A stretch of 64,000 nt of DNA from the NCBI RefSeq assembly GCF_042453785.1, contig NC_091661.1, positions 27,519,501 through 27,583,500 of the forward strand, in the 5' to 3' direction. Under the pieces are notes generated by a model, which saw nothing but the letters and a program-made list of their open reading frames with translations, was not told the origin of the DNA and made no database searches. The stretch comes from Malus domestica. Its lineage: Eukaryota > Streptophyta > Magnoliopsida > Rosales > Rosaceae. Of this stretch, positions 15,253-19,734 are shown one piece after another. Both the position numbers and the translations under genes were made by a program. Numbering within the stretch: position 1 is the stretch's first letter; each line of letters opens with the position of its first letter.

Positions 15253-15959
15253 GTTAGGAGGTATATTCATAATATTTTTCATATAAATATATTAGTATTT
15301 AAATTAGTGAATCTTTTTTAGGTTTATTTAAGTTAGTGAATCTACAAAATATAGATAAATTAATTTATAAAAAACTATGTTGATGCACAAAACCGGAGGG
15401 ATCTTGGAATAATGTAAATCTGACCGTGAATCTGCAAGAAAGTAAATAACATAAGATGTATCGTGGTTCACCCCAATGTTTGGCATACGTCCACACTGAT
15501 ATTCTATTTCTCTCAGAGGATTGTAAGGGAGAGAGCCTCTGTAATGTGAGAGCGAGGCATTGAGAGGGTGAGATTCATGCCTAAGAATTGGCCTGACCCA
15601 ATGAGGAAAGTAATGGGTCATTTTATAGAATAAGGGCTCCTTACTTATTACATATTTGCCCTTCCATTTATTACATAATTACATTTGAGTCCTCTGAGTA
15701 TTTATACGAGATCTAAATACGGAGGCCCTAAGTATGGTACAAACACTAGTCCCCCAAGTCTTCAGTCAAGAGAGTCTTTTGGCTGGAGACTTGAAATTCA
15801 GTCCATGTGTGGGCCGAAGTAACTAGATGTCGTCTAGAACTGATACTCGATATGCGGCGGTGCCCAATCTGAAATGATGCTTAACTAGAAGTAGCAAATG
15901 TTGCGAGGCTGCTCTGCTTGTGGCTTATGTTGCCTTGGTTGACTCGACTTGTGGCGTTG

Positions 15960-16430
15960 AAGGTGAGGGAGTTCTTTTTGTAGAATGATGAGCTAGAGTT
16001 GATGCTCGCGGCAAGGTGGTTGCTCAGTAGGCGGCGATGCTCTCTAATGATGGTGAGGGAGTCCCTTTTATAGAATAAGGGTTCGCTCCTCAATACATAA
16101 GTGATGGGCTAGAGTTGATGCTCGCGGTGAGGCGGTTGCTCAGTAGGCGGCGATGCTATTTAATGATGGTGAGAAAGTCCTTTTTATAGAATAAGGGTTC
16201 GCCCCTCAATACATAAGTTATGGGTTAGAGTTGAGGCTCGCAGCGAGGCGGTTGCTCAGCAGGCGGCGATACTCTCTAATGATGGTGAGGGAGTTCCTTT
16301 TATAAAATAAGGGATCGCTCCTCAGCACATGTAGAATGGTTGCTCTCTAACGAAAATGAGGGAGTCCCTTTTATAGAATAAGGGCTCGCTCCTCAGTACA
16401 TAAATAATAGGCTAAGTCCCTCAAGTATTT
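15960..16430 (-). repeat. Tandem units related to the LTR promoter region
   Basis: Three to four units of about 60-120 bp each contain the minus-strand word CCTTATTCTATAAAAGG, followed by a GGACTCCCTCA-like block. The same TATA-containing block is in both LTRs. At 16440-16560 a PPT-like stretch and LTR-edge-like sequence recur, almost repeating 15735-15830. The array therefore looks like amplified LTR U3 sequence next to the 3' end of the element. Confidence 0.65.
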
Positions 16431-16654
16431 TTCATGAGGCCCAGTTGAGGCTCAATATATGGTACATAATGTAGTCCCCCAAGTCTTCGATCAATAGAGT
16501 ATGTTGGCTGGAGACTTCAAATTGAATCCATGTATGTGCCGAAGTGGCGGTTGTTCGGAGACGGTATTTGTATACCCTGCATTGAAACTTTGTAGGTGAA
16601 GCTTTACAAGTGAAGCTTTTGAAGCTGGAGCTTTGTAAATGAAGCTTTTGAAGC

Positions 16655-16800
16655 TGATTGACATGAGTGATGCTCATGAATGTTTATGATGATTGACATG
16701 AGTGATGTTCATAGATGTTGACATGAGTGATGCTCATGAATGTTGACATGAATGATGGTCATGAATGTTTATGTATGATTGACATAAGTGATGCTCATGT
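16655..16800 (+). repeat. Short tandem repeat, unit about 25-35 bp
   Basis: Four to five imperfect copies of TTGACATGAGTGATGCTCAT lie inside the LTR element, just before a longer-unit minisatellite. No coding role is seen. Confidence 0.7.
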
Positions 16801-16804
16801 ATAA

Positions 16805-17245
16805 TTTTGGAGTACTAAACGTACTTTTGATCACCTGGTTGGTGATAATAGCGGCAGAGTGCCGAATAATTTTAGAGTACTTGGCGTACTTTTGATCATT
16901 TGGTTAGTGATAATTGTGGTAGGCTATCGAATAATTTTGAAGTATTGGGCGTACTTTTGATCACCTGGTTGGTGGTAATAGCGGCAGGTTGCCGAATAAT
17001 TTTTTGTAGTACTGGACGTACTTTTGATCACCTGGTTGGTGATAATAGCAGCAGGCTTCCGAATAATTTTGGAATACTGGGCGTATTTTTGATCACCTGG
17101 TTGGTGATAATAGCGGCAGGCTGCCGAATAATTTTGGAGTACTGGGCGTATTTTTGATCACATGGTTGGTGGTAACAGCGGTAGGCTGCCGAATAATTTT
17201 TTGTAGTACTAGACGTACTTTTGATCACCTGGTTGGTGATAATAT
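16805..17245 (+). repeat. Minisatellite, about 63-66 bp x 7
   Basis: Seven imperfect direct copies. Each contains GTACTTTTGATCACCTGG (or GTATTTTTGATCA), then GGTGATAATAGCGGCAGG and GCCGAATAATTTT. Copies differ by substitutions and by a small TTGTAG variant. It lies within the LTR element. Open frames across it are repeat products. Confidence 0.85.
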
Positions 17246-17689
17246 AGGGCTTGGCTTTTTTAGGCATATGGGTCTTTGCCCTCCACATAACATTCCAGCC
17301 CATTATTTTGGGATTGTCCTTTTTTTTTTTTTTGATTACCCTCTGATGGGGTTATACAGATGTCTCCGAAAGATAAGAAAAATAAATTACATCATTCAAA
17401 AATAAATCCGACCCTCTGCTCAATGGGTTACGCCCATAATTCCTTTTTTCTGCAGCCATCACTACCGCAATTATGTCTGCTTCTTTTTATCTTCTTTTGC
17501 TTTTTGCTTTTACTTTTGCTTTTACTTTCTCTTTTCCCTTTCTTTGAAAATGATTTCACATGACTTTCTCCTTTTGCTTTCTCAAAAATCAGAAAATGAT
17601 TTCACATGCATGAAACCGCGAGCACATGGCTTTCTCCCTGTTTTTGACGTCGTGACACTTCCATAGCAAATCTATTCAATAGATCTTGC

Positions 17690-18110
17690 TCTCTTCAGCA
17701 GAAAACGTCCATCTGGAATTGGCTTATTGATATGCACCTTATCAGCCTTCCTCTTCTTAAAGCTTTCTTTCCCGACTGGCAGCTAAGCTTTTGAGACAAA
17801 ACGATTTCGTTGGACGTCTTCTCGGCGGCTACAGTAGGCGGGCATCTAAAAGTCCTGGAGATGTTGTTATTGAGAGCATTACTCATCCCTTCAAACACTT
17901 CAGTGCCATTATTATTCATGACCAACCCACAAGACCCGAAACCTAATTCAGCCCACTAGTTTTAGGAACTCGGGTCGAGTTTCACCGTCCGGTTACCATT
18001 CAGAAAACTCTGAAGCCCCTAAGCATGAATTGGAAGGGAGAAAACCTTACTAAGCTCATCCCCGCCAAAATTATACTGAATCTGTTGCTGTTGTTGATCA
18101 TGATGGTCGC
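17690..18110 (-). pseudogene. Host-like coding fragment(s) inside the LTR element, unidentified
   Basis: On the minus strand, stretches with coding-like composition encode FEGMSNALNNNISRTF and, in a different frame, SFKKRKADKVHINKP; upstream is a Gln-rich patch. These look like pieces of a nuclear protein, perhaps a transcription factor. I cannot name the source. They lie downstream of the RbfA- and enolase-like parts and share their orientation with the element. Confidence 0.4.
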
Positions 18111-18126
18111 TCTGCTGCCACTTCAT

Positions 18127-18648
18127 CTAGGCCCTCTCGACGATGGGATTGCCACGGCTGTCGAAGATCTGCCTAGCCTTGACGAGCGCCACATGTTCCT
18201 CGTTCGTGCTCGCTCGGCCGACTAGCACTCCAGCGCTGCATCTATGGGTTATCCAGCTCAAAGTTCTTCCCCACAACCGATTCATTAAAAAGGTGTCCTG
18301 CAAGTCGGTGGAGACTTCAACATCGCTTATAGTGGTTAGCGAAGAGAGGTAACGGTCAGCACCCAAAGAAACCTCAGGAAGAATAGTGTACTGCAAGACC
18401 TTATCAGTTAAAAGCATGTTAGACAGCTCCCTTCTTATCTGCTTAGCCACCATTGCCACTCTGCGCGGGTTCACCATGTACCAGATGGTGTTGGGCCGCC
18501 AACCGAGCAGAACCGCATGATTTGTTGAGTGAAACGAGGCCGTTAATTTCTGGGTCTGAATTGGAAAGTTTGATGATGACGATGATGATGATGGGAGGTG
18601 GGAAAGGAAGGAGATGAGTGGTGGGTGGTGGAGGACCAAGTTTGGCAT
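18127..18648 (-). pseudogene. Fragments of RbfA and enolase captured in the LTR element
   Basis: A 173-codon open stretch, sense to the element. Residues 1 to about 60 look like a Ser/Pro-rich plastid transit peptide. Then NPRRVAMVAKQIRREL, LLTDKVLQY and GADRYLSSLTTISDVEV match the N-terminal part of ribosome-binding factor A, the 30S maturation factor (plastid type). The rest of the KH-like RbfA domain is missing. After about 40 unassigned residues comes VKARQIFDSRGNP, the first motif of enolase, cut off within a few residues. No intact enzyme or RbfA is encoded. The two pieces come from unrelated genes, so this is a chimera typical of transduplication. Whether it is transcribed is unknown. 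Confidence 0.75.
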
Positions 18649-19223
18649 TGTTGATTGCTGTATTCTATCCCAGCTCTTCTCTTCTCCTTTTTAGTGCTGG
18701 CAATGACGAGGACAAATCAGAATATTGGTGTGGTGTTTGGTTATTAGGTTTCTGCATATTCACGGTGGAGTGTGGTGAGGTCTCAAGGTGGTGAGATGAA
18801 AAAATGAAAGAGAACCGACATAGCTTTTTTTGTCGATTCCCACAGATGACGCCAAATGTTGATGCATAAAACCGGAGGGTTCTTAGAACAACGTAAATCC
18901 GACCGTGAATCTGCAAGAAATGTAAATAAAACAAGATGTATCGTGGTTCACCCCAAGGTTTGGGCTACGTTCACACTAATATTGTATTTCTGAGAGGATT
19001 GTGAGGGAGAGAGTGTGAGAGCCTCTGTAATGAGAGTGAGGCTCTGAGAGGGTTGAGAAGGCCTAGGAATTGGCCTCCTCTAATTGTAAGGGTGAAGAGT
19101 CCTTTTATAGAATAAGGGCTCCTCACTTATTACATATTTGCCATTACATTACATAATTACATTTGAGTCCACCGAATATTTATACGAGATCTAAATACGG
19201 AGGCCCTAAGTATGGTACAAACA

Positions 19224-19734
19224 AACTAGTATAATATTTCATACATTTTTATCATGGATCCCGAGCTTCTATGAGTAGGCATATCATTGATATTTCTCAT
19301 ATAAATATACTTATTATTTAATCTACAAAATATAGGTAAATTAATTAGTATAATATATTAGTATATAGTGGCTTGTTGCTCATCAGAATTAGAAAAAGTT
19401 ATGCTAACATTTATCTCTAACTTAAATAGGGCGTTGTTGCATAAGTTGTAAATATATTGTTAATAATAGGTCACTTATTTGCCCATAGGTTGTTAGAAAG
19501 TAAAGTTTTACTTGGATGTTTAAAATTATATGAGTTTTTATTTATGAAATGCGAATGGCAAAGGCCTACCCTCTCTTTTGTGTAAAATGTACCCATTGTT
19601 TTTTTTATATGAAATGTACCCATTACATAAAACGTATCGCTTTTTTTTTTTGAATAAAATGTATCAGCTTTTTGTATGTAAAATTCATTGTATAAAAATT
19701 ACCAATTTTTTGTATGTAAAATGTCATTAATATA
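19224..19734. repeat. AT-rich repeat unit flanking the LTR element
   Basis: The sequence after the target duplication (TATCATGGATCCCGAG, then CTACAAAATATAGGTAAATT) repeats that at 14530-14640 and 15253-15377. The hAT-like and LTR elements thus sit within tandem units of one AT-rich repeat. From about 19560, GTACCCATT words appear; these resume beyond the palindrome at 22320-22800. Confidence 0.55.

Follow-up and report, generated by a model that had tools for sequence, protein, structure and literature searches.

How does an element that has long terminal repeats (LTRs) and neither gag nor pol come to carry pieces of several host genes? The question is raised by a 3,846-nt element on the minus strand of Malus domestica contig NC_091661.1, at positions 15378-19223 of the window, by which we mean the whole 64,000-nt stretch analyzed here (27,519,501 to 27,583,500 of the contig). 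A preliminary description made from the letters alone had presented it as an LTR element that picked up pieces of RbfA, enolase and another gene. We find that it is a non-autonomous LTR retrotransposon and one copy of a very large family, in which the mosaic of host-message pieces changes from member to member. The cargo derives from genes of the same genome with the introns removed, as expected of captured host genes, and about half of the readable pieces across the family end at a parental 5′ splice site. We put at roughly 0.58 the probability that splicing joined host 5′ exons to cryptic acceptor sites in RNA of the element, with ordinary template switching operating alongside.

The genome searched comprises 651 Mb in 19 contigs; C-numbers denote contigs and L-numbers individual loci or elements. 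The parents of the window cargo were located in this genome, and the pieces lie in sense orientation (Table 1). The RbfA piece (375/399 identical nucleotides) is nearest to C5:9563338, with a p-distance of 0.053 as against 0.096 for the C10 homeolog. Exon 1 of this parent ends at CTTGCAG/GTACAT, and its next exon follows CTACAG and starts VVKVYVS. The enolase piece (48/49 identical to C14) finishes at GTCGAG/GTTCGC, the end of parental exon 1. The bHLH piece is nearest to C10:10081878 (p 0.075; 0.139 for the C5 homeolog) and ends at AATAAG/GTGTGC, with HLH sequence lying ~390-600 nt downstream of that point in the parent. Exon 2 was located for the RbfA and enolase parents, and the HLH exons for the bHLH parent. 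The comparison of 18127-18648 with the genomic RbfA and enolase genes, proposed in the preliminary description, leads to parents on C5/C10 and C14/C12, and the further coding-like sequence that it saw downstream proves to be part of bHLH exon 1 followed by the fourth piece. Its joining of RbfA to enolase holds in that both pieces are recognized by DNA identity, but 113 nt of other sequence separate them, leaving no direct fusion. The 32-nt part of this filler matches a gene on C11/C3 that is presumably RETICULATA-like, judging by its sequence; for the 64-nt part, no host parent appears among the 15 genome matches examined. The protein matches likewise stand in part: Pfam recognizes the parents clearly (RBFA, 5.5e-26 with exons 1 and 2 joined; Enolase_N, 8.6e-22), but the window open reading frame (ORF) itself stays below the curated cut-offs (RBFA, 0.0018; Enolase_N, 0.021).

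Other members of the family have LTRs, leader and tail in common with the window element and differ in the middle. First-look candidates number 3,298 with an LTR query and 3,055 with an LTR-plus-leader query; 40 candidates were scored per query, and the first-look figures are no count of elements. Perfect 5-bp target-site duplications (TSDs) flank nine of the 11 members checked, the window element included, and the 10 members measured are 3.5-4.4 kb long. No gag or pol coding was found in these (longest stop-free stretch ≤255 codons in 10/10), as in LARD-like non-autonomous elements, and the Pfam hits obtained for 20 cargo segments include no transposable-element domain. Interiors were searched against the genome for eight of the 20 available: the window element; L047, L053 and L054, chosen for a match to the enolase piece; and L055, L056, L057 and L058, chosen as among the best LTR hits (L036, L037, L040, L042, L043, L059, L061, L062 and L063 were left out of this search). 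All eight contain host-gene pieces, and five (window, L047, L053, L054 and L056) have at least two with parents read. L057 and L058 have one firm piece each, and L055 carries exon blocks from two genes, seven from one of OST48 type and three from the other, assigned by coordinates only. Five of the 20 cargo segments pass a curated Pfam cut-off: DUF668 (L047), GH79 (L053), OST48 (L055), cytokinin dehydrogenase (L056) and CN_hydrolase (L037). Weak matches only were obtained to pectinesterase, F-box-like, Sec20, Actin, WRKY and Myb and, in one L061 segment, to several NAD-binding-type families; seven segments have no Pfam match at E 0.05. The labels GH3, LPEAT1-like, auxilin-like, PP2C-like, PSA2-like, ARP8-like and PME-inhibitor-like are what we take these pieces to be, judging by their sequences.

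Where the captured pieces end was tallied for 19 sense pieces whose parental 3′ flank was read; the antisense PP2C-like piece, the 3′ end of the PSA2-like piece, the fourth window piece, all of L055 and the unsearched interiors do not enter. Ten 3′ ends coincide exactly with the parental 5′ splice site, two are ambiguous and seven lie elsewhere. The exact ends are those of RbfA, enolase and bHLH in the window and, in other members, of LPEAT1-like (L054), auxilin-like and PME (L053), the C6 and C12 genes (L056), F-box (L057) and GH3 (L058). The enolase end is counted once for the window and L053, and its mutated version in L060 is not scored apart; the last base of the PME end is clear only in L060 and L074. 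If ends were spread evenly over each piece plus 100 nt, ~0.07 exact ends would be expected (P about 3e-20), and a flat chance of 0.05 per piece gives P about 6e-9 for 10/19. Furthermore, AG directly precedes the next piece in all three clear cases, namely bHLH after enolase in the window, and GH79 after enolase and PME after auxilin-like in L053. A fourth such AG, after an ambiguous end, precedes the PSA2-like piece in L054, a piece otherwise known only from the element-like stretch L066.

Several observations weigh against splicing as the source of these junctions. The two ambiguous ends are the C2 gene in L054, exact only with a 3-nt gap allowed, and the LPEAT1-like piece in L035, which possibly keeps a few intron bases. 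Among the seven misfits, bHLH in L050 ends 7-8 nt inside the intron, enolase in L054 continues into the intron, and GH79 in L053 stops 5-8 nt before the 5′ splice site; the PME-inhibitor-like and DUF668 pieces of L047 and CKX of L056 end off the splice site, and the C11/C3 piece shared by L047 and the window ends at a coding GT. Since exons often end in AG, microhomology at that dinucleotide could also account for the AG before the acceptors. The PP2C-like piece (L053 4643-4864) is antisense, yet has a GT..AG intron precisely removed, and splicing onto the element cannot make it. A gradient of older pieces towards the 3′ side is weak in the window (bHLH 92.3% vs RbfA 94.0%) and is not seen in L054, L056 or L047. 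Most 5′ splice sites were located in the sequence itself rather than taken from annotation; those of multi-exon genes were confirmed by the next exon, and the others were identified from GT and its context. Finally, the RbfA, enolase and bHLH loci retrieved show no match to a family element except an LTR end ~4 kb upstream of the bHLH gene on C5 (L049 7866-8001). Because of this near-absence from the donor loci, insertion of the element in a donor's intron is unsupported today.

The junctions nevertheless suggest that splicing may help these elements to collect exons. A host transcript would be spliced from its 5′ splice site to a cryptic acceptor in element RNA, either in cis, where the element lies inside the gene or close to it, or in trans. 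Minus-strand synthesis would copy the tail, the older cargo and the new host 5′ exons, and would then return to an element leader, in many cases by way of short homology. With help from a putative autonomous partner, the product would insert. Repetition would place each new exon before the older cargo, the older piece being trimmed at the acceptor, and in the window the order of arrival would be the fourth piece, bHLH, enolase and, last, RbfA. Ordinary template switching would supply the other pieces. Two processes are needed because of the seven misfit ends, the overlaps at several joins and the one antisense spliced piece. A more far-reaching proposal, to which we give somewhat less than even odds, is that the whole family may act as a repeating exon trap in which spliced host 5′ exons are reverse-transcribed and stacked before earlier cargo, shuffling the exons of many genes genome-wide.

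The alternative that survives best attributes all junctions to template switching of the retroviral type, with switches between element RNA and the mature host mRNAs packaged with it, and takes the splice-site ends as incidental. It would explain the absence of introns from multi-exon pieces, the antisense spliced PP2C-like piece, the seven ends within exons or introns and the overlaps at joins (GH79/PP2C-like, 7 nt with one mismatch; PP2C-like/auxilin-like, 10 nt; DUF668/C11 piece, 2 nt). Mature mRNA, however, gives no reason to stop at exon ends, and 10 of 19 exact ends where ~0.07 are expected make template switching on its own unlikely, if still a serious competitor to splice-mediated capture.

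The interiors of the pieces bear on a second alternative, capture of genomic fragments at the DNA level (Pack-type or by gap repair) with splicing later, upon transcription of the element. Parental introns have been removed from within the LPEAT1-like, PME, C6-gene, CKX and GH3 pieces, and the LPEAT1-like piece has also lost a GT..AG stretch within exon 2. The GH3 piece spans exons 1-5, with three of its four introns read base by base. No complete intron occurs in the pieces read, and the multi-exon pieces were captured at the RNA level. Two apparent further introns were rejected: the 86-87 nt missing from the auxilin-like piece (L053) look like a short-repeat deletion, not GT..AG, and the 84 nt present in the C6 sister of the ARP8-like piece (L057) are bounded by TTTT. 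DNA-level capture could draw on L050, which keeps 7-8 nt of intron with its unspliced 5′ splice site, and on L054, which keeps part of enolase intron 1, but the intron-free state of multi-exon parents makes it improbable. Outside the pieces read, two captured exon blocks stand an additional 143 nt apart in a sister of L055; this stretch, C7:13263961-13264103, may be a retained intron.

Further junction details count in favor of splice-mediated capture, among them the unspliced 5′ splice site left in L050. Eight pieces start, by eye, upstream of the parental ATG. In L066 the PSA2-like piece retains its upstream part, including the start-codon region; in L054 that part is absent, and exon 1 of another gene is joined onto the PSA2-like piece at an internal TTTAG/GGAAGC, the 5′ side of the new exon meeting the leader in a CT-rich stretch. 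L054 also has enolase intron 1 joined to the LPEAT1-like 5′ untranslated region (UTR), where both the GT (its preceding base mutated) and a later ACACAG remain.

One other locus, C13:9716147 (L044), holds RbfA and bHLH pieces, within an element that is flanked by a separate TSD (CTGCT) and has an LTR divergence of 0.064. It shares the RbfA piece and the 3′ junction of that piece with the window, lacks the equivalent of window 18057-18193, where the enolase piece lies, and its RbfA frame is interrupted by a stop. The earlier expectation of other loci with the same junction is borne out to this extent only, since the RbfA-to-enolase arrangement is absent from the other 14 of the 15 genome matches. 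On C15, L050 holds a piece of the bHLH gene that was captured independently, starts in the 5′ UTR and is nearest to the C5 homeolog (p 0.045); one bHLH gene has been captured twice, from sources nearest to different homeologs (C5 for L050, C10 for the window). We also note an element start at L062 366-4801 that has the same leader as the window element as far as the RbfA piece; no family tail was found in the 4.4 kb beyond.

Two readings concern what the cargo might do. Captured pieces may feed putative small RNAs against the parental genes, as the preliminary description had suggested: sense pieces of 49-413 nt and 92-98% identity could match in principle, and small RNAs on LTR-captured genes are reported for rice and sorghum (PMC3726574). 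The 5-8% divergence of the longer pieces would leave few perfect 21-24-nt matches, and we regard this, too, as improbable. That the window element is a putative functional RbfA-enolase chimeric gene is highly unlikely: the 173-codon frame preserves both parental frames, but it includes only 16 enolase residues besides the filler, the C13 copy has the stop and no enolase piece, and the RbfA part shows no sign of selection on a protein when aligned to its parent, because nonsynonymous and synonymous divergence (dN 0.055, dS 0.060) are nearly equal (dN/dS about 0.92). A conserved chimeric protein is not supported by these comparisons, and this RbfA-enolase combination most likely arose by chance, as one of many such products.

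The anatomy of the window element agrees largely with the preliminary description. Its LTRs align over their length (p 0.147; Kimura two-parameter distance, K2P, 0.165), start TGTT and finish AACA, and AACTA stands on both sides, which upholds the TG...CA ends and 5-bp duplication and rejects a pair of chance, unrelated repeats. The longest stop-free stretch is 187 codons, in keeping with the absence of gag and pol, and the sense 173-codon open stretch is present as described. The stretch resembling a primer-binding site (PBS), TGGCGTCATCTGTGGGAATC, has close but imperfect similarity in nine other members compared. The reported polypurine stretch before the 3′ LTR, GACTTGGGGGACTAG, is similar in six other members compared, seven members in all having a similar GACTTGGGGGACTA, but it is not a clean purine run. 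The leader match ends at ~18754-18726 in the 40 scored hits, except at four places (window included), where it reaches 18697-18690. Tandem repeats of 116-nt and about 65-nt units occupy 15986-16414 and 16805-17263 of the tail and are present in other family members too.

Table 1. Features of the window element and its cargo, in window coordinates
Feature	Positions	Strand	Basis or remark
TSD AACTA, copy 1	15373..15377		sequence
3′ LTR (element sense)	15378..15745	-	LTR alignment; 368 nt
Weak polypurine tract GACTTGGGGGACTAG, adjoining 3′ LTR	15746..15760	-	member comparison
Family tail, including tandem repeats of 65-nt and 116-nt units	15746..17405	-	sequence comparison
Fourth piece, 86 nt	17629..17714	-	92-93% to C17:28678941 and C9:29721840
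Part of bHLH exon 1 (413 nt), starts after parental AG, stops exactly at parental 5′ splice site	17723..18135	-	C10, homeolog C5
173-codon open stretch, RbfA - filler - enolase motif	18127..18648	-	ORF confirmed
3′ part of enolase exon 1 (49 nt), cut exactly at parental 5′ splice site	18136..18184	-	C14, C12
64-nt stretch common to L047	18185..18248	-	sequence comparison
32 nt matching C11/C3 gene, common to L047	18249..18280	-	genome match
17-nt stretch of no assigned source	18281..18297	-	sequence comparison
RbfA 5′ UTR and exon 1, cut exactly at parental 5′ splice site	18298..18692	-	parent C5, homeolog C10
Family leader	18732..18834	-	match to leader in scored hits
PBS-like stretch TGGCGTCATCTGTGGGAATC	18835..18854	-	TGGCG-type, after 5′ LTR; priming tRNA not identified
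5′ LTR (element sense)	18857..19223	-	LTR alignment; 367 nt
TSD AACTA, copy 2	19224..19228		sequence

The LTR differences are unevenly placed, 42 of 62 falling in alignment columns 100-249, mostly the middle part. Because of this clustering, and because the LTRs have diverged further than the captured RbfA would allow, gene conversion of one LTR is likely, and a simple insertion date from LTR divergence was rejected. A second pair of unusually diverged LTRs (K2P 0.27) is that of L053, whose TSD is intact. The TGTT/AACA families of Rosaceae were considered as relatives and set aside; in the available part of their description (PMC5659011) they have other LTR ends than this family.

When plant LTR elements capture genes, the event is usually credited to rare template switching. 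A family with host pieces in all searched interiors, and with splice sites at roughly half of the ends that could be read, would offer an exon-shuffling route that can be counted, and its mechanism can be tested in a crop with deep RNA data. In the open-access literature we found no plant LTR case described as splice-mediated capture, the search having been aimed only partly at splice-site junctions. The comparisons that follow extend to the accessible portions of the papers cited. The nearest precedents are Bs1 of maize, an LTR element that holds parts of three host genes, exons only, forming a chimeric gene (PMC13317346, PMC4717578), and the soybean terminal-repeat retrotransposon in miniature (TRIM) GmaRetroS15, which is non-autonomous, has a 5-bp TSD and carries exon pieces of three genes without introns (PMC4717578). 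Both resemble the elements described here in these respects. By contrast with Bs1, whose junction positions do not enter the comparison, LTR candidates here run to thousands, the cargo varies between members, and roughly half of the ends that could be read lie at 5′ splice sites. The 30 soybean TRIM elements with fragments measure 1,172-1,449 bp, as against 3.5-4.4 kb for 10 members here, and splice-site junctions go unmentioned in the accessible description of GmaRetroS15 (PMC4717578). Maize B73 has 425 LTR elements with gene fragments from at least 189 captures, again host-gene fragments inside LTR elements; under the conditions of that survey no LTR element combined fragments of two or more standard nuclear genes, whereas five of eight here firmly hold at least two (PMC2774510). 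The closest parallel in mechanism is the human SVA_F1, in which the 3′ end of a host first exon was joined by splicing to an acceptor in the retrotransposon and then amplified, and pt_SVA_D6 members carry exons of eight other genes (PMC6139936). SVA is a non-LTR element; the LTR elements here must also regain leader and 5′ LTR. That plant LTR elements can capture exons alone, and from several genes, is known from Bs1 and GmaRetroS15. The maize survey lists no multi-gene LTR elements, and a 2026 review gives plant 5′-transduction as unreported (PMC13317346).

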